40,062 nucleotides of DNA from a virus, in the IMG/VR virus record IMGVR_UViG_3300042010_000084, positions 1 through 40,062 of that record. One strand, written 5' to 3'. Below, in pieces: positions 5,101-35,618 of this stretch (position 1 is its first letter; every line of letters starts with the position of its first letter). The notes beneath the pieces are model-generated. The model was not told the origin of the DNA. It worked only from the letters and a program-made list of their open reading frames with translations, and made no database searches. A program made the translations under genes and the position numbers.

Positions 5101-6111
5101 ATGCCGCGAGAAATGACCCTGCCGCTCAAACCGGAAACCGAGCCGCGCTTTTTCCAGAAGCTCGCCGAGGCCGAGGCGAAGAAAGATCCGGTCGCCGCAC
5201 CTGTGACCGCGCTCTGGCCCGCGCCGGGCGTCTATCACGGCATGAAGCCCGCCGACTACCATGCGACCCGCGAGATCGACGGCACGCGCATCGCCTCCAA
5301 GTCGCTGCTGTGGGATTTCTTTCCGAATCCTCGCCGCTGGAATGATTCGCCGCCCAAGGAAGTGACCGCGGCGATGCGCTGGGGCAGCTTGGTCGATTGT
5401 CTGACGCTGACGCCCTCGCTCTTCGCGGAGAGCTACGTGGTCGCCCCGGAGACTTACCTTGCCCCGGAAAGCGCCAAGAAGGATGCGCCGATGATCGCAA
5501 AGCCGTGGAACTGGAATGCCAACGCTTGCAAGGCGTGGCGTGACGAGCGGCCAGATAAGGAGATCGTGACGGCCGACGACCTCGTTGACGCGACGAAGGC
5601 CATGAACCGCCTGCTCGATCACCCGGCCGTGGCGTCGATGATGGACGGCGCGGCAACCCAGGTCGCGATGCGATTCGATTCTTATCTTCATGGGGACAAG
5701 GTGCTGCCGCTCAAGGGCCTGCTCGACATCGTGCCGAGCCGCCTTGGCGAATGGGGCGACACGCTCGTCGATCTAAAGGAAATCGGCCAACTCGACGACA
5801 TCCGCGGGCTTGAACGGACTATCTACGAGCGCGGCTATCACGCGCAGGCCGCGCTCTATCTCGACATGTGGAACGCGCTCACGGGCGAAAAGCGCAAGGA
5901 GTTCGTGTTCGTCTTCCAGCTTTCGTCAGCGCCGTGGGAAGTGGCCATCGTTCGGCTTAAGCCCGAAGCGTTCGAAGTCGGCCGTGACTGGTATCAGAAG
6001 GCGGCTCGCAAGTGGGTCGAATGCATCACGACCGACATCTGGCCTTCGCCGTGGGATCACATCCAAGAGGCCGGGCTGCCCGCGTATGCCTACGGCAAGG
6101 ATGCTGCATGA
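5101..6111 (+). CDS. RecE-like PD-(D/E)XK exonuclease (DUF3799 type)
   Basis: The protein has 336 residues. Typical elements are RIASKSLLWDFFPNPRRW (substrate loading helix), MRWGSLVDCLTL, then catalytic Asp209 in GLLDIVP, Asp224-x-Lys226 in VDLKE, and the QAALY motif at 249-253. These match phage exonucleases of the RecE C-terminal/DUF3799 family, which resect double-stranded ends for annealing-type recombination. It forms a pair with the upstream gene, and RusA further on completes a recombination set. The first 35 residues are charged and probably disordered. Confidence 0.78.
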   Translation: MPREMTLPLKPETEPRFFQKLAEAEAKKDPVAAPVTALWPAPGVYHGMKPADYHATREIDGTRIASKSLLWDFFPNPRRWNDSPPKEVTAAMRWGSLVDCLTLTPSLFAESYVVAPETYLAPESAKKDAPMIAKPWNWNANACKAWRDERPDKEIVTADDLVDATKAMNRLLDHPAVASMMDGAATQVAMRFDSYLHGDKVLPLKGLLDIVPSRLGEWGDTLVDLKEIGQLDDIRGLERTIYERGYHAQAALYLDMWNALTGEKRKEFVFVFQLSSAPWEVAIVRLKPEAFEVGRDWYQKAARKWVECITTDIWPSPWDHIQEAGLPAYAYGKDAA

Positions 6112-6146
6112 ACGACCAAGCCGAGCAACCCGGCGAAGCGCCATGA
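6108..6146 (+). CDS. 12-residue linker ORF between exonuclease and peptidase-like gene
   Basis: An ATGA overlap with the exonuclease stop opens MNDQAEQPGEAP, which ends in another ATGA that starts the next gene. A peptide this short is probably not functional. The precise stop-start overlap at both ends suggests it carries ribosomes across the gap in a region with no Shine-Dalgarno sequence. Confidence 0.25.
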   Translation: MNDQAEQPGEAP

Positions 6147-6553
6147 AAACGACCAACACACCACAAAAGCAACCCGCGCAGCCAGGTTGCGCTCCGGCGG
6201 CTGGTTCGCTGGTCGCGCAGGAGGACCGCAGCGGATGCGGGATCGCTTGCGTGGCAATGCTCGCGGGAAAAACCTACGCGCAAGTCCGAAGCTTTTACCT
6301 GCAATCAGGAAACCGAGATGAAAAGGAGGCTCGCCTAAGTGCGGTGGGCAATGGGGCTGGAATGACCGCCGGGGAATTGGTCGACCTGATGGGAGCGTTT
6401 GGCGTGCCGCCGCACATCGCGAAAACGGGCCCGCTTGTCTATCGAATCGAAGGCCAGCCCGGACTGGGAGGGCACTTCGTCGTTATCACCGCTGACGGCA
6501 CGATCCTTGATCCAGCGAACGACCAAGCGGAGCCGCGCTCCAACCAATACTGA
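6143..6553 (+). CDS. C39/papain-like cysteine peptidase-fold protein
   Basis: The protein has 136 residues. After a Pro/Gln-rich leader, QEDRSGCGIACVAMLAGKTY gives Gln26 and Cys32 in the oxyanion-hole/nucleophile spacing of C39 peptidases. GGHFVVITADG supplies the His and ILDPAND the Asp. C39 domains usually remove leader peptides, but small stand-alone phage versions are uncharacterised. It is cytoplasmic by appearance and sits between the recombination pair and small unknowns. It might process a host or phage protein, or be an inactive binding fold. The start is fixed by ATGA overlap. Confidence 0.6.
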   Translation: MKTTNTPQKQPAQPGCAPAAGSLVAQEDRSGCGIACVAMLAGKTYAQVRSFYLQSGNRDEKEARLSAVGNGAGMTAGELVDLMGAFGVPPHIAKTGPLVYRIEGQPGLGGHFVVITADGTILDPANDQAEPRSNQY

Positions 6554-6555
6554 CC

Positions 6556-6924
6556 ATGGAAACAAACACCGACACCCAACAACCCCAACGCGAAGCGTTG
6601 GCTCCCGCGACTGGTTCTCGCTTTGTCACGGTCGTCTATTGCGTGACCGACGAAGCAGAATGGAAAAAGACCAATCCACTAACTTACGAGCACAATGGAC
6701 TTACGGCTATGACCATCGGAGTCGGCGACGCCTACACGACACTGGATGAGGCTGAGTCGCTGTTTCTGAGGTTGGATAGCGAACCGACCGTGCTACCCAC
6801 CCAACTTCGCCGCGACATCCGGCGGTATCTTGGGGCCGAAGAAGCCGACGACCGTGCACCGATTCGGATCGGAGGAAGCTACGAATGCAGCGAGAACGCT
6901 CCAGCGCAGCAACCGGCCGAGTGA
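6556..6924 (+). CDS. Hypothetical protein, 122 residues
   Basis: It starts METNTDTQQPQ. The centre has alternating hydrophobic residues (RFVTVVYCVTDE, GLTAMTIGVGDAYTTLDEA) suggesting a small alpha/beta fold with polar, probably disordered ends. No motif recognised. The stop overlaps the next start as TGATG at 6922-6926. It belongs to a run of small early genes with no known function. Confidence 0.55.
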   Translation: METNTDTQQPQREALAPATGSRFVTVVYCVTDEAEWKKTNPLTYEHNGLTAMTIGVGDAYTTLDEAESLFLRLDSEPTVLPTQLRRDIRRYLGAEEADDRAPIRIGGSYECSENAPAQQPAE

Positions 6925-7319
6925 TGCCGGAAAACTCTCAACCACCTCAAATCATGTCCGAAGAAATCGACAAACAAACTGCCCCCGACCGGCCGGTTGC
7001 CGCTGCCGCGCCTTGTTGTGCGTCTTTGGAGTGGTATCCAGGCCCCGCAAATGGCGGCGGCGGAACCGCTCAAGAAAGCTCGCCGAACGGTGATCCGTGG
7101 TGGCGAGACGGCGACCTGCTGCTTGTGATCGTGGATTGTAATGACGGTCCCGAAGTGTCCGCCGTGCGCGTCCATGCCGACGGCTCTGAATCGCTTGATT
7201 TCTCAAACGCGGCATCCGGCGACTTCGACTTCGGATGGACGGATCGAGACATCTCATGGTGGGCGCGTCTCGACGGCGTTCTTCCGCCCAACGCCACAGA
7301 TGAGACGCGCCCTCACTGA
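6924..7319 (+). CDS. Hypothetical acidic protein, 131 residues
   Basis: The start at 6924 overlaps the upstream stop, and a second candidate is MSEEID at 6954. The N-terminal third is low-complexity. The rest reads GDLLLVIVDCNDGPEVSAV and DFGWTDRDISWWARLDGVLP, an acidic beta-rich pattern ending in a WW-containing motif like those of uncharacterised phage early proteins. Function unknown. Confidence 0.55.
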   Translation: MPENSQPPQIMSEEIDKQTAPDRPVAAAAPCCASLEWYPGPANGGGGTAQESSPNGDPWWRDGDLLLVIVDCNDGPEVSAVRVHADGSESLDFSNAASGDFDFGWTDRDISWWARLDGVLPPNATDETRPH

Positions 7320-7342
7320 CTCCGAACACCCCCGAAAATCAT

Positions 7343-7594
7343 ATGGAAAACACTCCGAAAACTGACGCGCTCCCGGGCGTCGAATCTCCATCGGCTGGTT
7401 CTGGAGCCCCTGACGCTCCGCCTCTGAAGTTCGCGGACTGGCTCTTCCCACTCGGGTCATGCCACGCCCGCCTCATCATCGAAGCTGATAAGATCGGCGA
7501 GATCGAACCCGAGGATATGGACGCTCTGGCGGACCTTGCTGCGATACTTAAACGCCAATTGGAGCGCCGGAAATCCCGTCTCCAGAACAGGTGA
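7343..7594 (+). CDS. Hypothetical protein, 83 residues
   Basis: It has a disordered, Pro/Ser/Ala-rich first 30 residues and a C-terminal helical part (DMDALADLAAILKRQLERRK) with a basic end. No recognised domain. It lies directly ahead of the integrase, whose start is 26 bases beyond this stop. A small basic protein next to an integrase could be an excisionase, but no winged-helix pattern is visible, so this is only a possibility. Confidence 0.5.
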   Translation: MENTPKTDALPGVESPSAGSGAPDAPPLKFADWLFPLGSCHARLIIEADKIGEIEPEDMDALADLAAILKRQLERRKSRLQNR

Positions 7595-7619
7595 TTCATC
7601 GGAAAAAAGTTGGTTTATC

Positions 7620-8606
7620 ATGACAACCCAGGAGGCATTGGAACGATTCGATAAGGCGATGCGCGAGATGCGCTTTGCTCGGTCGACCCGTTGCTCCTAT
7701 CGGTCGCACGTCGCCTGCTTTGGTCGGTTCAAGCCCGATGAACCGTGCGCCACGCCGGAAGAGAAGGTTTCGGCCTACCTATCCTGGCTGGCGCTGAACC
7801 GCTCGGAATCCCACCAACGTCAGGGGCTAAACGCGCTCGTCTGCTTTTACAAGGCGATGGGCAGGCCGCTGGCCAAGCTTCCGCCGTGGGTTCGGCCTAA
7901 ACCACGAAACCGAGTGCCGAACTGGGTCACCATGACGGAAGCCCGAGCGATCATTAATCATCTGCGCGAGCCATGGAACGAAGTCGCATCGATGCTGGTC
8001 GGTTCTGGCCTACGCATCGGCGAATGCCTCGACCTGCGCGTCAAAGACCTCGATCTGCACCGCGGGACGGTGACGATCCGTAGCGGCAAGGGTGACAAAG
8101 ACCGGGTGACGCTATTGGCTCGGTCATTGATCCCTGTGCTCGAGCGTCGACTGACTTGTTGCCGTGCGATCTGGCAAGAGGACCGAGCAGCAGGACGACC
8201 AGGGGTTTTTACCCCGGACACGATAACGCGCAAATACCCGCGCGCCGGGCAAGAGTGGGCGTGGTTCTGGTTGTGGCCCGCGCCAGGAGAATCTACCGAC
8301 CCCGATAGCGGCATCGTCCGCCGGCATCATCGCCACGAAGAAGGATTTTCCAAAGCTCTCAAGACTGCGGTCCGGCACGCCGGCATCGGAAAGCGGGTGA
8401 CCGCTCACGCCTTCCGTCACGGTTTCGCGACCGCCTACCTCGAAAACGGCGGGACCGTGCAGGAGCTCCAGCACCTGATGGGCCACTCCAATATCGAGAC
8501 AACCGAGGTGTATCTGCACTGCCTACCTCGGCTGGCGAGCCGCGTCTCCTCGCCGTTGGACGTCGGGATCGACGACGCTCCGATCCCTTTCCGAAAGATT
8601 TCCTGA
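7620..8606 (+). CDS. int: Tyrosine recombinase of the integron-integrase (IntI) type
   Basis: The protein has 328 residues. An N-terminal SAM-like core-binding domain is followed by the catalytic domain with Arg132 (GSGLRIGE), Lys157 (GKGDKDR), His263 and Arg266 (HAFRH), His289 (LMGHSN) and nucleophile Tyr298 (TTEVYLH). Residues 212-245 (EWAWFWLWPAP, then DPDSGIVRRHHRHEE) correspond to the extra segment that separates integron integrases from XerC/D, which in IntI helps bind the extrahelical bases of attC hairpins. All catalytic residues are intact. A phage carrying an IntI-type enzyme is unusual. It may integrate the phage genome. Confidence 0.85.
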   Translation: MTTQEALERFDKAMREMRFARSTRCSYRSHVACFGRFKPDEPCATPEEKVSAYLSWLALNRSESHQRQGLNALVCFYKAMGRPLAKLPPWVRPKPRNRVPNWVTMTEARAIINHLREPWNEVASMLVGSGLRIGECLDLRVKDLDLHRGTVTIRSGKGDKDRVTLLARSLIPVLERRLTCCRAIWQEDRAAGRPGVFTPDTITRKYPRAGQEWAWFWLWPAPGESTDPDSGIVRRHHRHEEGFSKALKTAVRHAGIGKRVTAHAFRHGFATAYLENGGTVQELQHLMGHSNIETTEVYLHCLPRLASRVSSPLDVGIDDAPIPFRKIS

Positions 8607-11369: not shown

Positions 11370-11597
11370 ATGAGCGACCCGTATGCCGTTAGAATCGGAG
11401 GAGTCTTGTCCGACCCCTATCGGATAGCTCGCGCTTACGAAATAACCGACCCGGTGATTTTCCAAGCGCTTAAAAAGATCCTTCGTTGTGGACGCAAGCA
11501 CAAGGACGTCACGACCGATGTTCGAGAAGCTATCACCACACTAGAGCGATGGGAGGCCATGAACGCCGAGGATCAGGTTAACCAACCCAACCCATGA
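11370..11597 (+). CDS. DUF3310/SaV-like small protein
   Basis: The protein has 75 residues from the ATG at 11370. SDPYRIARAYEITDPVIFQA, then LKKILRCGRKHKD and DVREAITTLERWE resemble the phage DUF3310 (SaV-like) family, where a long helix carries the KYILRxGRK pattern. These proteins are sometimes annotated as nucleotide kinases, but their role is unclear. An in-frame ATG at 11319 lies inside the previous gene and is not favoured. Confidence 0.6.
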   Translation: MSDPYAVRIGGVLSDPYRIARAYEITDPVIFQALKKILRCGRKHKDVTTDVREAITTLERWEAMNAEDQVNQPNP

Positions 11598-11905
11598 GCC
11601 CGCAAGAACTCACCCTCGCGATCAAGGCCGCGAAGAAGCTGCCGAAGCCAGCCAAGAAGCCGAAGGGCGTCGCCAGCCGCGCCGTGCCAGGATGCGCGAT
11701 TTCATTCGACACCACCCCGCGCCGCGACGGGTCGGAACTGCCGCGCCACGTTTACCGCGGCTACAAAGGCCGGTTCAACGTCCGCGTCCAGATCGATGGT
11801 GAAGGCCACTACCTCGGGACGTTCACCACCACCAGCGCCGCAGTCGACCGGCTGCGCGAATTCTCGAACGACCAAGCCCCACGGGGCGCGTCACCTAACC
11901 TTTAA
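11594..11905 (+). CDS. AP2-domain DNA-binding protein
   Basis: The protein has 103 residues. A Lys/Pro/Ala-rich basic N-terminus (KAAKKLPKPAKKPKGVA) is followed by HVYRGYKGRFNVRVQIDGEG, then HYLGTFTTTSAAVDRLREF, the three-strand plus helix pattern of an AP2/integrase-DNA-binding domain. In phages this domain is normally fused to HNH homing endonucleases. Here no HNH motif is present, so it may be a stand-alone DNA-binding protein or a remnant. The start overlaps the previous stop. Confidence 0.6.
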   Translation: MSPQELTLAIKAAKKLPKPAKKPKGVASRAVPGCAISFDTTPRRDGSELPRHVYRGYKGRFNVRVQIDGEGHYLGTFTTTSAAVDRLREFSNDQAPRGASPNL

Positions 11906-11952
11906 GCACCCTCAACCCTGCCGCGCTCCCGTGCGGCGACTAGTTCGACTTT

Positions 11953-12203: not shown

Positions 12204-12617
12204 ATGAACATCGCCGAAATCCCAATCGACGACCTCATCACCGAGCTGAAACGACGCAAGGTGGGAGGAAGCGGCAGCAACGTGCTCCATGAGGCGCTGG
12301 CCGACAAATACGCCGAGCCGGTGAAGCAGGCTGTCGCCAAAGCGTTCTGCGTGCTGCCCGAGCAAGTGTTCGGGGCGAGGGGTTGCCAACGCGTCAGCAA
12401 CGCTCGGATCGCCTCCTACATCATCCTGCGCCGCGCTGGCCTGTCGCTGAACGAGATCGCCTTTCTAACCAACCGGGCCTGTCACACCACTGTGATCAAG
12501 GGAATCGCGCGTGCCGAAGATCTCGGCCAGCAGGAGCCTGAGTTCCTCCACGGCGTCACCGAGGCGTTCCGCGAAGTGAAAGCCGCCGGGCTTATTCCAA
12601 CCAAATCCGAAAAATGA
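12204..12617 (+). CDS. DnaA domain IV-like DNA-binding protein 1
   Basis: The protein has 137 residues. Residues about 40-110 (VKQAVAKAFCVLPEQVFGAR, VSNARIASYIILRRAGLSLN, EIAFLTNRACHTTVIKGIAR) match the C-terminal domain of DnaA: the first helix pair, then the basic loop and the helix-turn-helix ending in the HTTV motif that contacts the DnaA box. No AAA+ domain is present, so it can bind DNA but not melt it. It may mark the phage origin, regulate replication, or compete with host DnaA. It overlaps the next, related gene by four bases. Confidence 0.72.
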   Translation: MNIAEIPIDDLITELKRRKVGGSGSNVLHEALADKYAEPVKQAVAKAFCVLPEQVFGARGCQRVSNARIASYIILRRAGLSLNEIAFLTNRACHTTVIKGIARAEDLGQQEPEFLHGVTEAFREVKAAGLIPTKSEK

Positions 12618-15118: not shown

Positions 15119-15201
15119 GGTCTTGCTAGTTTAACGGTAAAACGCTCGCCCCTGCGCGCAAAGGGCGAAAGTTACGGGTTCGAATCCCGCCAAGGCCACC
15201 A
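15119..15201 (+). tRNA. tRNA-like element 1 with enlarged anticodon loop
   Basis: The acceptor arms GGTCTTG (15119-15125) and CAAGGCC (15191-15197) pair fully with one G-U, and an encoded ACCA end follows (15198-15201). The D arm GTTT/AAAC (15129-15132, 15140-15143) encloses the invariant GG. The T arm has a TTCGAAT loop and four GC pairs. The anticodon stem TCGCCC/GGGCGA closes an 11-base loop rather than 7. If the single T is U33, the anticodon reads GCG (Arg), but identity is uncertain. There is one extra base between the acceptor and D arms. Confidence 0.65.
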
Positions 15202-15208
15202 CTTTCAC

Positions 15209-15282
15209 CCATCGCTAACTCAACGGTAGAGCGTCGGCCCCAAGAGGCAGGCGGGTTCCCGGTTCAAGTCCGGGGTGATGGG
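15209..15282 (+). tRNA. tRNA-like element 2 with irregular anticodon arm
   Basis: The acceptor CCATCGC (15209-15215) pairs with GTGATGG (15275-15281). The D arm ACTC/GAGC encloses AACGGTA, and the T arm CCCGG/CCGGG encloses a TTCAAGT loop. The anticodon stem has an internal G-A mismatch and a loop of 6-8 bases (within CCCAAGAG) with no U33, so no anticodon can be assigned. No CCA is encoded. It starts eight bases after element 1 and probably shares its transcript. Confidence 0.5.
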
Positions 15283-15457
15283 TTAAACTCTCCACAAAAA
15301 CGAAGCCAGCCGGGCGGAACCACCTGTTCGCAGGCCGACGAAGACGGCAGGAGATCGCATTTGAGCGGGCGCGGCGAAACGGCGTCACCGGATCTCGTAA
15401 CCGGGCAATTTAATTCTTGAATGTCTTGGCGCTTAAATGTTACGGCATCCCGTAACG
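15283..15457 (+). promoter_or_regulatory. Intergenic region before the late block
   Basis: About 175 bases follow tRNA-like element 2 without a supported gene. The last 55 bases turn AT-richer (CAATTTAATTCTTGAATGTC) and are a likely promoter region for the packaging and virion block. A CGTAAC half-site lies at 15396-15401, and a full palindrome with the same core lies at 15439-15456. No clear -35/-10 pair could be fixed. Confidence 0.35.
15439..15456 (+). promoter_or_regulatory. Palindromic operator-like site at the regulator start
   Basis: GTTACGG-CATC-CCGTAAC is a perfect inverted repeat with seven-base arms, ending one base before the ATG at 15458 of a winged-helix regulator. Position and symmetry suggest an autoregulatory operator or a hairpin hiding the translation start. 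Confidence 0.5.
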
Positions 15458-29447: not shown

Positions 29448-32400
29448 ATGCTCACCCTTACCGACTCCGCCAACCCGACGCTGGGAAGTTCGCTCGAAGG
29501 CGCGCCACTCGCCGCGCCGGACGGCATCCGCCAGTCGCTCGACAACCCAATGAAGGCGGCGCTCTATGCTCCGGCCGATGAGGCATTGCGGCAATGGCGG
29601 CGCGATACGGTCGACAAGCTCGACGCGGACGCTCTCGACTTCGACAACGTCTCGCCGGAGCTCGATCCATGGGTTCGCAAGCGAGCGATGATTTCGGCCT
29701 TTCTCAACGTCGCAACCGACGAAGATCCTGGCGATGGGCTGGCCTATGAGATGCTGCGCGATCAAGTGGCCGAGCAATCCTTCGAAGGCCGAGGCAAAGG
29801 CAGCGACGACGCGTTTTTCGCCGAATTCCAGAAAGCCGCGAAGGGCCGCAAGGATGGCCGGGCGCTGGACAAGACACTATCCGAAGCCGCCGCCCTGTCC
29901 GCCACCGCGCAGGCGACCGACTTCTTTTCCCGCGATCTGAGCACGTTTGCCCAATGGCGCGACAAGGCGCGCGCGTCGCCGGGCTACGACCCGAAGCGCG
30001 AAGCGGACTATCTCGAAGCATGGGAAGCGCAACGCGAGGCCGTGCGCGAGCAGGTGGAGCCGTATCTTGGGCCGTTGTCGCAGGTATGGAGCGAAATCCA
30101 AACCGACCCGGGGACGATCGGAAGCCGGATCAAGGACGCTTATTTCCGTATTCCGCTCGATCAGCGCCAGCCATTCATGGCCTCGCTGTCCGTGCTGGCC
30201 AAGGGCTTGCCAAAGGAGCAGCAACCGGCGTTTTGGGCGAATCTCAAGAAGCAATCTTCCCGCGATACGTCCGACCTCGGCCGCCAGGCATGGGAAGGAT
30301 TCAAGGCGTTCACCATCAATTCTTCTGTCGGCTTCTCCGGTGGTGCCAGCCTGATTTCTCAAGGCCAGATCGAGCAGGACGAACGCAACTTTGTTGCCGA
30401 CGTGCTGAACATCCAGCGCGCGGAGTATGACCCGATGGTCTATTTGCGGCCGAAAGGCTGGCAGCAGGACGTGGAGCGCGGCATTTACGGCACCCCCGGC
30501 GCGGTGGCGACCACGATCGCGGCTGCGGTTCCGGGCGGTCAGGAGTTCTTGTTCTTCTCGATGCAGGGCAGCGCCTACGACACGACGCGGCGCAGGCTGT
30601 TGAGCCAAGGCAAGAGCGACGCGGAGGCGTCCGCATTCGCTGCGGAAGCCGCTCCCTTTATCGGATCGGCCGAGATGCTGCTTGAGCGCGTGCAGGCAAA
30701 GGCCGTCATGGGCAAGCTGCCGATCCTTGAAAAGACTCTCGGCCAAGCGGCGGACAAGATCACCAGCCGGGCCGCGCGCTTTGGCGTCAGGACGGCGGCG
30801 GGCGCGGTGGAAGAAACCGCGATCGAGACCACACAGAATTTCCTCCCGGTATTCGCGCAAGAGGTGGCGGACGCCCTTGGTGCCGACGTTCCCGACGTGC
30901 AATGGACCGGACCCGGCGGCGAACTCGAAGGGTTTTGGGGCGACTCGCTTTCGACCTTCGTCACCGTTCTGCCGCTGGCGATCATTGGCGCCACCGGTGG
31001 CGCATCCAAAGACGCCCGCGCCAAAGCGTTCGCGGAGGCCAGCGATAACCAGCTCAAGGCGTATGGGGCGACCGACGAGGCGATCGCCAAACTCCGCGCG
31101 GCGGATGGCCAGTATTCACTGAATACCGCCGTCGATGAATTGCGTGGATCGCTGGATCCATTCTCCGCAACCGCCAAGGCGGCGGTTGAACAGCTCAAGG
31201 CCGAAGCGGAAGCGGCTCAACAGCAAGTCCAAGCCGCCGAGCGCTCCGGCGTGATGCCGCGCTTCGTGCGCGATGCGGACGGTTGGACGGTTTACGACGG
31301 CGAGACCCAGGAAGAAGTCGGTAAAGCACCCGACGCCGCCGGCGCGTTCCGGCTGGCCAAGGTGCATTCCGATGCGGTGGACGGGATGAAGGGCGACCGC
31401 GTGGCCTACTTGGCGACGATGTTGGAAGTGGGCGACACGCAAAGCGCGCGCGACGACGCATCCCGCCAGACGACGACCGACTTCCGCCCGGGCGAAGCGG
31501 TGACGACCAGCCAACAGGCGGCGATCTCCGAAGCGGATGAATCTCGCGTGGCGGCGCAGGTCGCGGCGAAAGAACGCCTCAACGGCGGCGACGGCTCCAT
31601 GGCGCAGCTCGTCCTCGGCCAAAGCTCGACCGAAACCAAGCAGCGCGTGCGCCAGACGGTGAACCGCCTGAATGCCGGATCGTCCGTGCTGACCGTCTTC
31701 CACGAAGAAGCGCACGGCTTTTTCCGGGAAGCGCTGGCAACTGGCCGCCTCACGAAAGACGAAACGATTCAGTCCATCCGCGCTCTCGAATCCGCGCTCG
31801 CGGGCAAGACCACGAAGGACGGCCAAGCGCTGCGATTCCTGCCGGAGAACGACGCGGACATCGACGACACGACGCTCGACGAGGCGGTTGCCGAATTGAT
31901 TGAGGCGGAAGTGCTGCGGACGCGCAAATCCGGCGGCGTGCGCCAACTGCCCGGCGGCATCATCTCGCGCAACCTCTCGGCGATCGCCCGGCTTGCACCC
32001 GGCGCGGCACGGAAATTCGCGGCGTTCGCGGACGCGGTGCGTTCCTATTTCGGTCTCGCGTTCGCACGGGCGGTTGCGATCCGCCAAGGCATTCGCGAGG
32101 GCAAGCTCGACGCCAAGCAGCTCGACGAGTTCGCCTCCAAGCTGTTCGGGCTGACCGAACAGGACGAGCACGACGCGGCGGCGGTGAAGGTCGCCGAGGA
32201 TATCACTGGCGAAACGCTGGACGGGGGCAACCCGTTTTCCCTCGGCCCGGCGGCGATGGCCGACGCGATCATTGGCGACGCTGCCGCGCGGATCAAAGAC
32301 CCGAAGGCCAAGGCGAAGGTTTTCACCGGCATCGTGGAGCGCATCGGCCAACTGAAGCGCGATCAGGACGAAATTGGCACCGCGTTCGGGAAAGACTTCA

Positions 32401-35400
32401 CGCGCAAGGCGATCGACGAGCCCCGCCGCAAGGAATCGATCGAGCGCGAGGCGAAAGTTCGCGAGGCGTTGCGCCGTGCCGAACTGGAAGACGAAGCGCA
32501 CGCCCGCCACGTCGGTATTCTTTCCGCACCAGAACTCGCGAAGCTCAAAGAACAACCGGTTCACGGTTATCTGGCCGACCCAATCAGTCCGCTCAAGGGG
32601 CGGCTGCGCTCCAAGGTGGAGGCGATCCGATCGACGTTCTTCGACGAAAGCCGCCACGGCGATTACGACGGTTCGGAGGATGTTTCCCGCGCGGTGTTTG
32701 GCGGCTCGCTGGCTCCCGATCAAGCGGCGCAGGAACTCTTCGACCACGGCTTGATTGCCGAAGCGACGCCGGACGCGATGTGGAGCGCACTGAAGAGCGA
32801 AGCGGCGAGCGTTAAGCGGATGCAAGCCGCGCTCAAAGCGGCAGAGACCGACCTGAAGGCCGCGCGCGAAACCGCGAAGCGCGAAGCCAAGGAGTGGAAG
32901 GTCGACCGGCTCGCGGAAGAGAAGGCGAATTACTCGCCCAAGTCGCGCCTGTTGCGTGCACTGGCAATGCTCGACGGCATCGTCATGGCGCTGCCGATCG
33001 AGCTGCGCGGACGCGTCGGCGGCTACACTCAGCTTGCGAGGCTGGGCAGCGATGAGGCGCGGTTGAAGTTCCTGCAAGGGCGCGTGGCGAAGGTGGAAGC
33101 CGTCGTCAACGAATGGCTGCGCGGAGAATTCACGAAGTCGCTGGAGAAGCTGCTTGATAAGGCGCAGCCGAAGCGCGAGGGCGGCAAGAAGGCCAAGGGT
33201 AAGCTCGGCGCGGAAGGTCACCGGTATTTCGCGCAAGTCGAAGGCGTGATCGGCATGGACGAGACCGGGCTCGAGCTACATCTAAAGTCGCTCGACGACC
33301 GAATCGCGGAAGCCGATGAAACGGAATTGGCCGACTTGGCGGAGGACTATCAAATTGCGCTGACGTTCGGAAATTTCGCCGATAAAACGCCACTGGAAAT
33401 GAACGCCGCGCTGGAGAAGGCGCTCGACGTTTACGAGACCGGCCGCAATCGTTGGAAGACGCTGGAAGAGGCGCGCTTGGCCGACGTGAAGGCGCTGGCG
33501 GCAACCGGCATCGAAGAGCTTGGCGGCAGCGGCATCGCGGCACGTCAGGCAGGGAAGCGCCGCGGCAAGTCGTTGCCAGCGCGCGTATCCGAAGGCCGGT
33601 GGGGAATCTATTCGTTCCCGGAGTTCCTCGAAAACCTCTTCGGCCGCGACAGCAAAGTATCCAAGCGATGGGGCAAGGCGGTGCGCGACGGATTCCGCCG
33701 GCGGACGTCCGCGATCATCCAGGCGGAACGACGCTGGAAGTCGGCGATGCACGAGGCGACGGGCAAAACCGGGCGGGCGGCGCGTCAACAGGTGCACCGG
33801 ATGCAGACGGATTTCAGCGTTTCGGCCACCGTGCGCGTGCAACTACGGGAAAAACTCCGTGTGCCGATCGACACTTTTTTCGAGGCGGAACAACAGAAGT
33901 CGCTGGGGCTGACCAAGGATGAAATCGCCAAGCTGACCGAGCAATTCGAGGCGCTGCCGGAAGGCAGCCGCAAGGAGTATTTGGAGATCGAGCGCATCAG
34001 CGAGAAGACGGCGGAAGTCGCGGAGTTCACCGAGGCGGAGGCGATCTATCTGACGATGTTGTGGCGCCAGGAAGGCTACAAGGATGGCATGACGCTGCAC
34101 GGCCTTGGCACGGACTTCCAAGCCGAACTGGAAAGCGGCCTGTCCGACGCGGCGAAATCGCTGCGCGAGTATCTGGCGGGCGAATACGCGGGCAACTATG
34201 AGCCGCTGCGCCAACTCTTCTCCCGGATGTTCGGCGTGGATCTCGCGCAAACCGACCACTACACGCCGGGCAAGTTCTACTCGCAAGGCTCTGGCCAAGA
34301 GCTCGACGTGACCGGCTCGAGCTTCGTCGAGGGCGGCTTCAAGCAAGGGTTCCTCAAGGATCGCAAGAAGCACCGCGCTGAGGCCAAGGCCGAGAATGCG
34401 TTTCAGGTCTATTTCGCCCACCTCAATCAGACGGAGCACTGGAAGGCGATGGCCGAGGTTTCTCGCGAAATGCACGCGGTGTTGGGCAATCCAGAGATGA
34501 AGAAGGCGCTACAAGCCCGCGATCCGGCCGCCGCTGCGGCGCTGAACGATTGGCTGCGCGCGATCGATGGAAACGGCCTCAACCAGGGTAAAGAGTCCTA
34601 CCTGCTGGACGCCCTGATGAAGTCGCAGGCTTATCTCGCGATGGCGTGGAAAGCCTCGACGATCCTCAAAAACGGCATCGGTGCGGCGATCAACTCGGCT
34701 TACCGGATGCCGACGCGGGATTTCCTGCGCGGCTACGGTCGCTTGATGGCCGGGAAAATCGACTTCGCCCACGTCTGGAATTCGGACGTGATCCAGAACC
34801 GGATTCACGGCGGATTCGCTCCGGAAGCGCGCGCGGCAATCAGCGACGCATTCGGAGCCAAGCCAACGCTGCGCGGTGATTTCCTACTGAAAGGCATGGA
34901 AGTGATCGGCCTTGCGGACAGCTTCGGCACCGCCGCCGGTGCGGCCGTGGCCTATGATTACCATTATCGCCAAGCCAAGCGATCCGGACTATCCGAGGTC
35001 GACGCCCAAGCCGCGGCAATGAACGAAGCCGCGGAAGTCGTCTCCCGCACGGCGCAACCGGCGGAAGTCACGGACCGCTCGCTGATGGAGCTGAAAATCC
35101 ACGGCATCGGCCGCTTGGCCTTCGTGTTCGCCAGCGAGGCGAGGCAAAAGTCCGCGATATGGCTGACCGCGTGGGGCCACACGCTGACCGGCAAGGCGAC
35201 CAAGGACGACTTGCGCGTTTTGGTGATTTCCCATCTCGTCGTGGCACCCATCATGCACGCGATCGGGGTGATGGCCCGGGATGCCCGCAACGATGACGAC
35301 GACGAGTGGTTTGATGACAAATACTGGAACGCGAAAGATTTCGCGATTGCGATGGCGACCGGGCCGTTGTCCGGCCTACCTCTCGTTCGCGACGTGGTCG

Positions 35401-35618
35401 ACGGCTATTCCGGCGACAGCGGGCCGCTCAAGCGCATGTTCGATTCCGGCAAAGCAGCGAAAAAACTCTTTGCCGACGAGCCGAAGGGCAACAAGGCCGA
35501 CTGGTATGAAACGCAGATCACGAAGCTCCTCCAAGGCTTCAACCCATCGCTCGCGGTGGCATCGAGCGTCTTCGATCAGATCTACGACGTCGCCGACAAC
35601 CTCGGCGGCAAGGATTGA
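29448..35618 (+). CDS. Giant internal virion protein (gp16 position) with HExxH motif
   Basis: The protein has 2056 residues, far longer than T7 gp16 (about 1300). The N-terminal 700 residues are helical and charged. A hydrophobic segment lies near residue 500 (FVTVLPLAIIGATGG). VFHEEAHGFF at 752-756 is a zinc-metallopeptidase-type HExxH, followed by LDEAVAELIEAE as a possible third ligand. The remainder is long coiled-coil-like helix with a hydrophobic C-terminal part. It is probably ejected first into the cell, forming the periplasmic channel, and the peptidase could cleave cell-envelope or host proteins. No SLT-type transglycosylase motif is visible. Confidence 0.72.
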   Translation: MLTLTDSANPTLGSSLEGAPLAAPDGIRQSLDNPMKAALYAPADEALRQWRRDTVDKLDADALDFDNVSPELDPWVRKRAMISAFLNVATDEDPGDGLAYEMLRDQVAEQSFEGRGKGSDDAFFAEFQKAAKGRKDGRALDKTLSEAAALSATAQATDFFSRDLSTFAQWRDKARASPGYDPKREADYLEAWEAQREAVREQVEPYLGPLSQVWSEIQTDPGTIGSRIKDAYFRIPLDQRQPFMASLSVLAKGLPKEQQPAFWANLKKQSSRDTSDLGRQAWEGFKAFTINSSVGFSGGASLISQGQIEQDERNFVADVLNIQRAEYDPMVYLRPKGWQQDVERGIYGTPGAVATTIAAAVPGGQEFLFFSMQGSAYDTTRRRLLSQGKSDAEASAFAAEAAPFIGSAEMLLERVQAKAVMGKLPILEKTLGQAADKITSRAARFGVRTAAGAVEETAIETTQNFLPVFAQEVADALGADVPDVQWTGPGGELEGFWGDSLSTFVTVLPLAIIGATGGASKDARAKAFAEASDNQLKAYGATDEAIAKLRAADGQYSLNTAVDELRGSLDPFSATAKAAVEQLKAEAEAAQQQVQAAERSGVMPRFVRDADGWTVYDGETQEEVGKAPDAAGAFRLAKVHSDAVDGMKGDRVAYLATMLEVGDTQSARDDASRQTTTDFRPGEAVTTSQQAAISEADESRVAAQVAAKERLNGGDGSMAQLVLGQSSTETKQRVRQTVNRLNAGSSVLTVFHEEAHGFFREALATGRLTKDETIQSIRALESALAGKTTKDGQALRFLPENDADIDDTTLDEAVAELIEAEVLRTRKSGGVRQLPGGIISRNLSAIARLAPGAARKFAAFADAVRSYFGLAFARAVAIRQGIREGKLDAKQLDEFASKLFGLTEQDEHDAAAVKVAEDITGETLDGGNPFSLGPAAMADAIIGDAAARIKDPKAKAKVFTGIVERIGQLKRDQDEIGTAFGKDFTRKAIDEPRRKESIEREAKVREALRRAELEDEAHARHVGILSAPELAKLKEQPVHGYLADPISPLKGRLRSKVEAIRSTFFDESRHGDYDGSEDVSRAVFGGSLAPDQAAQELFDHGLIAEATPDAMWSALKSEAASVKRMQAALKAAETDLKAARETAKREAKEWKVDRLAEEKANYSPKSRLLRALAMLDGIVMALPIELRGRVGGYTQLARLGSDEARLKFLQGRVAKVEAVVNEWLRGEFTKSLEKLLDKAQPKREGGKKAKGKLGAEGHRYFAQVEGVIGMDETGLELHLKSLDDRIAEADETELADLAEDYQIALTFGNFADKTPLEMNAALEKALDVYETGRNRWKTLEEARLADVKALAATGIEELGGSGIAARQAGKRRGKSLPARVSEGRWGIYSFPEFLENLFGRDSKVSKRWGKAVRDGFRRRTSAIIQAERRWKSAMHEATGKTGRAARQQVHRMQTDFSVSATVRVQLREKLRVPIDTFFEAEQQKSLGLTKDEIAKLTEQFEALPEGSRKEYLEIERISEKTAEVAEFTEAEAIYLTMLWRQEGYKDGMTLHGLGTDFQAELESGLSDAAKSLREYLAGEYAGNYEPLRQLFSRMFGVDLAQTDHYTPGKFYSQGSGQELDVTGSSFVEGGFKQGFLKDRKKHRAEAKAENAFQVYFAHLNQTEHWKAMAEVSREMHAVLGNPEMKKALQARDPAAAAALNDWLRAIDGNGLNQGKESYLLDALMKSQAYLAMAWKASTILKNGIGAAINSAYRMPTRDFLRGYGRLMAGKIDFAHVWNSDVIQNRIHGGFAPEARAAISDAFGAKPTLRGDFLLKGMEVIGLADSFGTAAGAAVAYDYHYRQAKRSGLSEVDAQAAAMNEAAEVVSRTAQPAEVTDRSLMELKIHGIGRLAFVFASEARQKSAIWLTAWGHTLTGKATKDDLRVLVISHLVVAPIMHAIGVMARDARNDDDDEWFDDKYWNAKDFAIAMATGPLSGLPLVRDVVDGYSGDSGPLKRMFDSGKAAKKLFADEPKGNKADWYETQITKLLQGFNPSLAVASSVFDQIYDVADNLGGKD

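Follow-up and report, generated by a model that had tools for sequence, protein, structure and literature searches.

A candidate phage-lineage integron with inverted, stop-sharing cassettes in the early operon of a podovirus

Integrons are regarded as bacterial gene-capture platforms, and reports of them in phages concern either captured bacterial integrons or attC clusters that lack an integrase. A gene for an integron-type recombinase in a phage genome therefore raises the question of whether it encodes a true integron integrase (IntI) and, if so, what sites the enzyme might serve. The window that we analysed is a whole virus record of 40,062 b. It carries a terminase small subunit, the phrog_332 connector, the phrog_376 tail protein, a major head protein and a T7-type fibre. 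By these families the carrier phage is a podovirus, as the original prediction had it: the T7-like head-tail connector, tail tube, capsid and fibre families lie on the same contig as the recombinase. Three further loci of the window are recorded here for completeness. A 2,056-aa ORF lies between the tail and fibre genes (29448-35618) and presumably encodes a giant internal virion protein. The protein of 12204-12617 has a helix-turn-helix (HTH) resembling the C-terminal part of DnaA (PF08299; its E of 8e-7 falls slightly short of the curated cut-off). At 15119-15283, ARAGORN predicts two tRNAs whose anticodons are incomplete and which are probably not real. The gene in question is the following:

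7620 to 8606, plus strand: intI, encoding the phage integron integrase (328 aa; catalytic residues complete, IntI-specific segment present)

This ORF translates into an intact protein of 328 aa. We tested its identity with the TIGR02249 model ("integron integrase"), which it matches at 278.5 bits, above the curated cut-off of 265, whereas the XerC and XerD equivalog models give 98-100 bits, far from their cut-offs of 330-335. Its best match among solved structures (phmmer) is Vibrio cholerae VchIntI4 (2a3v, E 1.9e-50). That alignment runs unbroken across the IntI-specific segment (query WFWLWPAPGESTDPDSGIVRRHHRHEEGF, IntI4 WHYLFPSFQLSLDPESDVMRRHHMNETVL), whereas the alignments with XerA and XerC-like proteins break there. 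The catalytic residues R132, K160, H263, R266, H289 and Y298 are all present and aligned. The claims made from the sequence alone, that the enzyme is of the IntI type, keeps the full catalytic set and carries the extra IntI segment, are thus borne out, and by profile and structure matches the ORF encodes a true integron integrase.

We then placed the protein in two trees. The first includes 75 bacterial IntI from GTDB genomes, 78 proteins from viral collections, and Xer outgroups; the second, more careful one has 86 rows. All IntI form one clade relative to Xer in the first tree, and they do so with 100/100 support in the second. The window protein falls in a virus-only clade of 23 rows in the first tree (support 98) and of 15 rows in the 86-row tree (100/98). 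It thus groups neither with XerC/D nor with ordinary phage integrases, and its IntI score is not below threshold, the outcomes that had been named as refuting the prediction. Its nearest viral relatives are 58-64% identical to it, and the closest bacterial IntI with a long match is 47% identical among the matches listed. A C-terminal tail resembling NVVPFxRxA is common to many proteins of the window clade.

If the enzyme is an integron integrase, the genome may hold its sites. We searched for attC with a home-made Infernal covariance model, built from 35 sites of other phages and none of the window, and with a profile of 49 sites from 14 other phages, whose null was set by 20 shuffled 40-kb sequences. 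The Infernal scan of the window returned four tandem attC and a solitary one, all with E<=2.4e-5, and the next best hit had an E of 0.03. The four cassettes span 6113-7587, between a backbone gene and an attI-like site. The features are these:

7584 to 7619, minus strand: attI-like site; the crossover AA^C is predicted to lie at 7587/7588 (G^TTCTGGAG on the minus strand)
7292 to 7587, minus strand: cassette 1, 296 bp; plus-strand ORF 7343-7594, 83 aa, with its stop codon inside attI
7284 to 7406, minus strand: attC of cassette 1 (Infernal E 1.9e-5, profile score 20.7)
6897 to 7291, minus strand: cassette 2, 395 bp; plus-strand ORF 6924-7319, 131 aa
6889 to 7023, minus strand: attC of cassette 2 (Infernal E 5.5e-6, profile score 49.8)
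6520 to 6896, minus strand: cassette 3, 377 bp; plus-strand ORF 6556-6924, 122 aa
6512 to 6622, minus strand: attC of cassette 3 (Infernal E 9.3e-11)
6113 to 6519, minus strand: cassette 4, 407 bp; plus-strand ORF 6143-6553, 136 aa, with a weak, sub-cut-off Peptidase_C39-like stretch
6105 to 6212, minus strand: attC of cassette 4, distal end of the array (Infernal E 5.7e-11)
5101 to 6111, plus strand: backbone gene (DUF3799, PDDEXK nuclease-like) that borders the array on its distal side
11861 to 11951, minus strand: solitary attC outside the array (Infernal E 2.4e-5)

Three of the window attC score 49.8-53.1 on the profile, above the null maximum of 34.3; that of cassette 1 is weaker, its 20.7 lying under this maximum. 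The boxes of successive elements are chained: the R'' of cassette 1 (CTCCAGAAC) complements the attI junction (GTTCTGGAG) exactly, and the R'' of cassette 3 (AGCGAGAAC) does the same for the R' of the preceding attC (GTTCTCGCT). For the attC of cassette 4, R'' (CCAGCGAAC) is likewise an exact complement of the R' sequence GTTCGCTGG. Overall, two R''/R' links of the window are exact complements and the match of cassette 2 is partial.

The same organisation is found across the clade. Hairpins lie at the starts of the plus-strand segments and read, on the minus strand, as R'' (...GAAC), L'', a variable loop, L' and R' (GTTC...). In most clade members whose sequence extends far enough, a leave-one-out profile scan finds attC arrays upstream of intI, 64 sites on the minus strand vs 1 on the plus strand. 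The arrays hold from 2 to at least 11 attC. On 35 further loci, the Infernal model gave 77 matches at E<=0.01, at least 11 of them in L190; some of these matches are in bacterial loci (L126, L123), so the phage attC resemble bacterial ones. Over the whole structure, 94 cells are altered on both sides of the pairing, vs 50.2 +/- 5.7 after shuffling (0/500); the covariation is clearest in the L''/L' stem, and sliding the partners abolishes it. Successive R' and R'' boxes agree at 4.80 of 6 bases vs 2.62 when shuffled, the maximum of 10,000 shuffles being 3.27. By this count, the phage arrays follow the integron rule, under which each R'' pairs with the start of the cassette that it belongs to. 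An initial scan made with no profile had not separated the strands (63 vs 61 upstream matches), because AAC...GTT hairpins read alike on both; the profile and the covariance model resolved them.

Some attC lie outside the main arrays. Solitary or secondary sites occur downstream of intI in the window (11861-11951), L012 (11969-12372), L025 (13580-14066) and L072 (about 7346-7868), and cassettes may also enter such secondary sites. On the plus strand, in the opposite orientation and with chained R boxes, second attC arrays lie about 7.2-8.3 kb upstream of intI in L022/L023 and about 8.8-9.6 kb upstream in L025/L206.

The site between the array and intI has the properties expected of attI. Its minus-strand consensus in the clade, ATAATTCAACTG/TT, has the polarity of an integron R box, and the motif is kept in clade members although their upstream genes differ. 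It lies 34 nt upstream of the intI start codon in the window and mostly 33-67 nt in the clade, where the automatic choice of attI was wrong for L024 and unsure for L027. Comparisons of near-identical phages show what happens there. In L010, GTCAGAGAAC is joined to AGTGATTATCC; L011 and L190 have the same flank followed by extra DNA, and then GGGCGAAC joined to AGTGATTATCC. Relative to L010, the insert lies between GAAC and AGTGATTATCC and measures 1,803 bp (L011) or 1,801 bp (L190); on its other side, L010 and L190 are 99.6% identical across 5.7 kb. L016 and L210, 99.98% identical over 5.6 kb of upstream flank, differ between GGCGAAC/G and attI, and L013, L195, L016 and L023 have the same attI abutted by different sequence. 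In the L010/L011/L190 and L013/L016/L195/L210 comparisons alike, the insertion point is the attI-like site, and the near-identical phages differ exactly at the predicted crossover. Strain comparison thus marks this site as the entry point of cassettes. The window phage has no near-identical sister in the collections searched, and the evidence of turnover therefore comes from its clade relatives only.

These comparisons bear on whether the enzyme could instead be a lysogeny integrase, whose substrates would be an attP (the conserved site before intI) and, in the host, an attC, attI or dif, the array being incidental. The intI gene is the only PF00589 match in the window, and the conserved site adjoins the integrase gene, as an attP often does. 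However, in sister phages it is cassettes that enter at the conserved site, and tandem attC with matched R''/R' boxes call for a cassette explanation; nor is there a prophage with a close IntI among the matches listed, the best one of full-length type being 47% identical. We consider a lysogeny role very unlikely. Two uses had been proposed for the enzyme. Cassette capture is strongly supported by the attI, the four-cassette attC array, and the turnover and exchange in relatives. Integration into host integrons has no such support: no prophage was found among those matches, and the sites form a cassette array inside the phage genome. The array, the attI-like site and the inverted cassettes with shared stops go beyond what had been predicted.

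Segments are also shared between phages that have diverged. L020 and L190 share a segment of 1,011 bp at 99.8% identity with AAC/GA at both ends, vs 78.7% in the intI region and 68-82% in other blocks. L012 and L193 share 277 bp (98.2%), exactly from AAC to AAC; this segment abuts attI in L193 and lies downstream of intI in L012. To judge from such shared segments and from the strain pairs, all of them in clade relatives of the window phage, cassettes are gained, lost and transferred as units.

The coding organisation of the cassettes is unusual. At 49 of the 56 informative junctions (out of 65 attC junctions), the long upstream plus-strand ORF is in frame 0, with the AAC as a codon. The chance expectation is one third, giving a p of about 6e-17 that is somewhat overstated because junctions from related phages are not fully independent. 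A frame-0 stop follows within 24 codons at 64 of the 65 attC junctions. The cassette ORFs thus run toward intI and get their stop from the next attC or from attI: the attI sites of the clade give the same frame a stop (AAC AGG TGA in the window), and the ORF at 11594-11905 reads in frame through the AAC of the solitary attC. Both the stop and the start codons are located in the attC loops, and the two often overlap (ATGA). The window-clade cassettes depart on both counts from the canonical layout, in which the ORF points away from intI and has its own stop; in the bacterial array L126, attC polarity is the same, yet the ORFs point away from intI. The sense of the plus-strand ORFs is backed by Pfam matches. 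We relied on these and on reading-frame phase because counts of the longest ORF are noisy at high G+C; such a count (38 to 10) was set aside. Since proteins are read in frame through the crossover and stopped by the next element, recombination would swap their tails. The cassette protein shared by L012 and L193 ends in MYPQ-N-DPDETTPDLTTK in one phage and in -N-SDYPEQLSR in the other, the latter being L193 DNA translated by eye in the same frame. As the AAC is an in-frame Asn codon at the crossover, any cassette can follow any other.

Could the array be an ordinary early operon, its hairpins and variable small genes left by homologous or illegitimate recombination? Early regions of phages are indeed mosaic, and BLAST matches between those of the clade are patchy. 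This account is nonetheless extremely unlikely, given that breakpoints recur at one triplet, transfers end at AAC, R'' and R' boxes form a chain, the hairpins covary and the junctions keep a single reading-frame phase.

A remaining alternative is that the phage carries a bacterial integron as passive cargo, as described for Vibrio p16/p42, P1 and Shewanella M16-3, and that a host IntI drives the dynamics of its cassettes. It has published precedent (PMC9892861), and a host IntI could in principle drive the recombination. Viral IntI are also scattered at several places among bacterial IntI, which implies that captures happened more than once. However, the published phage-borne IntI (Vibrio p16, Shewanella M16-3, P1) group beside bacterial IntI (L004 with L150, L005 with L153), whereas the virus-only clade of the window protein is deep (100/98), has an attI, an attC style and a C-terminal tail of its own as well as inverted stop-sharing cassettes, and spans varied virion types. 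For the latter, we used PHROG scans because Terminase_6N is above its cut-off in only 6 of 49 records. They recognise terminase, portal, protease and major head in L193, which is an HK97-type tailed phage, and find no recognisable virion genes in L012 and L016. The sequences compared are metagenomic contigs, and the window clade occurs in phages of different virion types. Passive cargo is very unlikely.

Other viral IntI lie outside this clade. The first tree has further virus-only groups (L037/L041-44/L053/54/65/71; L051/63/67/69/75/77/79; L039/49/52/56/73/85), mostly without matches to the present attC profile, which may use a different attC style. In another viral IntI clade, the near-identical contigs L045, L046 and L218 have upstream blocks shuffled at AAC/G boundaries, and by this pattern they look like a second, separate phage integron lineage. 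Finally, L030 and L031, IMG/VR records from isolate genomes, encode IntI almost identical to P1 IntPac / class 1 IntI1 and are probably class 1 integrons that ended up in the viral collection.

What do the cassettes carry? Pfam searches of 61 cassette proteins identified 6 DNA methyltransferases (3 N6/N4, 2 C5, 1 Dam), Mom, an RNA ligase, a PAPS reductase, a HAD protein of RNA-repair type, a DnaG-type zinc finger and several HTH proteins; the majority have no recognised family. Judging from these families, which include several DNA-modification genes, the cargo perhaps counters host defence. Pfam gave no confident family for the four cassette ORFs of the window (6143-6553, 6556-6924, 6924-7319 and 7343-7594). 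Searches for homologous cassettes found none for cassette 2 in other viruses and none for cassette 4 in phage records; for cassette 4 in other viruses they gave 7 distant loci, 0 of them with a confident attC around.

Taken together, the window phage very probably carries a complete phage-lineage integron whose IntI adds and removes cassettes in the early operon. Its support at the sequence level comprises the IntI identity, the attI and attC sites, the R''/R' chain, the crossover breakpoints, inter-phage transfer, the inverted ORFs and the shared stops. In the mechanism that we propose, intI follows the array as the next gene of the early operon, and its product would recombine attI with attC hairpins. 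It would be the phage's own enzyme that does so during infection, and from what is known of IntI biology we assume that it acts on single-stranded, folded attC as the phage replicates. New cassettes would enter beside intI, along the direction of transcription of the operon. Each element supplies its left neighbour's stop and its own ORF's start, so a captured cassette would be translatable at once. As the cassette ORFs face intI, we infer that the array and the early genes are transcribed together; given the inverted ORFs, an early phage promoter would be a likelier driver than Pc. The array could then serve phages as a pool of accessory genes open to exchange, of which several act in DNA modification and others perhaps in counter-defence. 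More broadly, there is probably a virus-specific class of integrons in podoviruses and HK97-type phages, in which phage IntI exchange inverted, stop-sharing cassettes, rich in genes for DNA modification and other counter-defence, between unrelated phages during infection.

If this is true, a virus lineage that has an integrase and an attI of its own and exchanges cassettes would provide a site-specific mechanism for the mosaicism of phage early regions and a viral counterpart of the gene libraries of bacterial integrons. It would also link phage and bacterial cassette pools, and could explain the orphan attC clusters of lytic phages. In the literature searched, with preprints and most subscription papers outside its scope, we found no phage-specific IntI lineage with its own attI, no inverted stop-sharing cassettes and no inter-phage cassette transfer.

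Compared with bacterial integrons, whether mobile class 1 or sedentary chromosomal, the system has the same TIGR02249 IntI, an attI at the 5' end of intI with a G^TT crossover, tandem attC of R''/L''/L'/R' structure with an extra base in the L'' arm, the R''/R' chain and insertion at attI. It differs in being carried by tailed phages with a virus-only IntI clade, and in its ORFs, which face intI (away from it in the L126 array), cross the crossover in frame and take their stop from the next element. In temperate phages, Qi et al. (2023) described 3 complete integrons plus one In0; they also described 17 attC clusters without IntI, some with methyltransferases; 5 of 6 phage attC recombined with IntI1 (PMC9892861). 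Both studies thus find attC cassettes and intI in phage genomes, with DNA methyltransferase cassettes, but at least some of those integrons are captured bacterial ones, whereas the phage IntI lineage described here is diversified, has an attI of its own and shows inter-phage exchange of cassettes. Virus Rctr41k (KX853513) also has an IntI-type gene in a co-directional early region, the "xerD integrase-like protein". This is a relative of the window clade in one tree (support 90), and its position is unsettled in the 86-row tree; it differs in having 34% identity and no attC with the present profile. For the shared stops, the nearest precedent found is ORF-11 of attI1, an 11-aa leader over the crossover whose stop comes from the first cassette and whose translation is coupled (PMC8876359). 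There too, the frame crosses the crossover and the neighbouring cassette supplies the stop, but the leader is in attI only. Here the arrangement concerns most cassette proteins, in the inverted orientation, and such inverted, shared-stop cassettes point to a different way of expressing captured genes.
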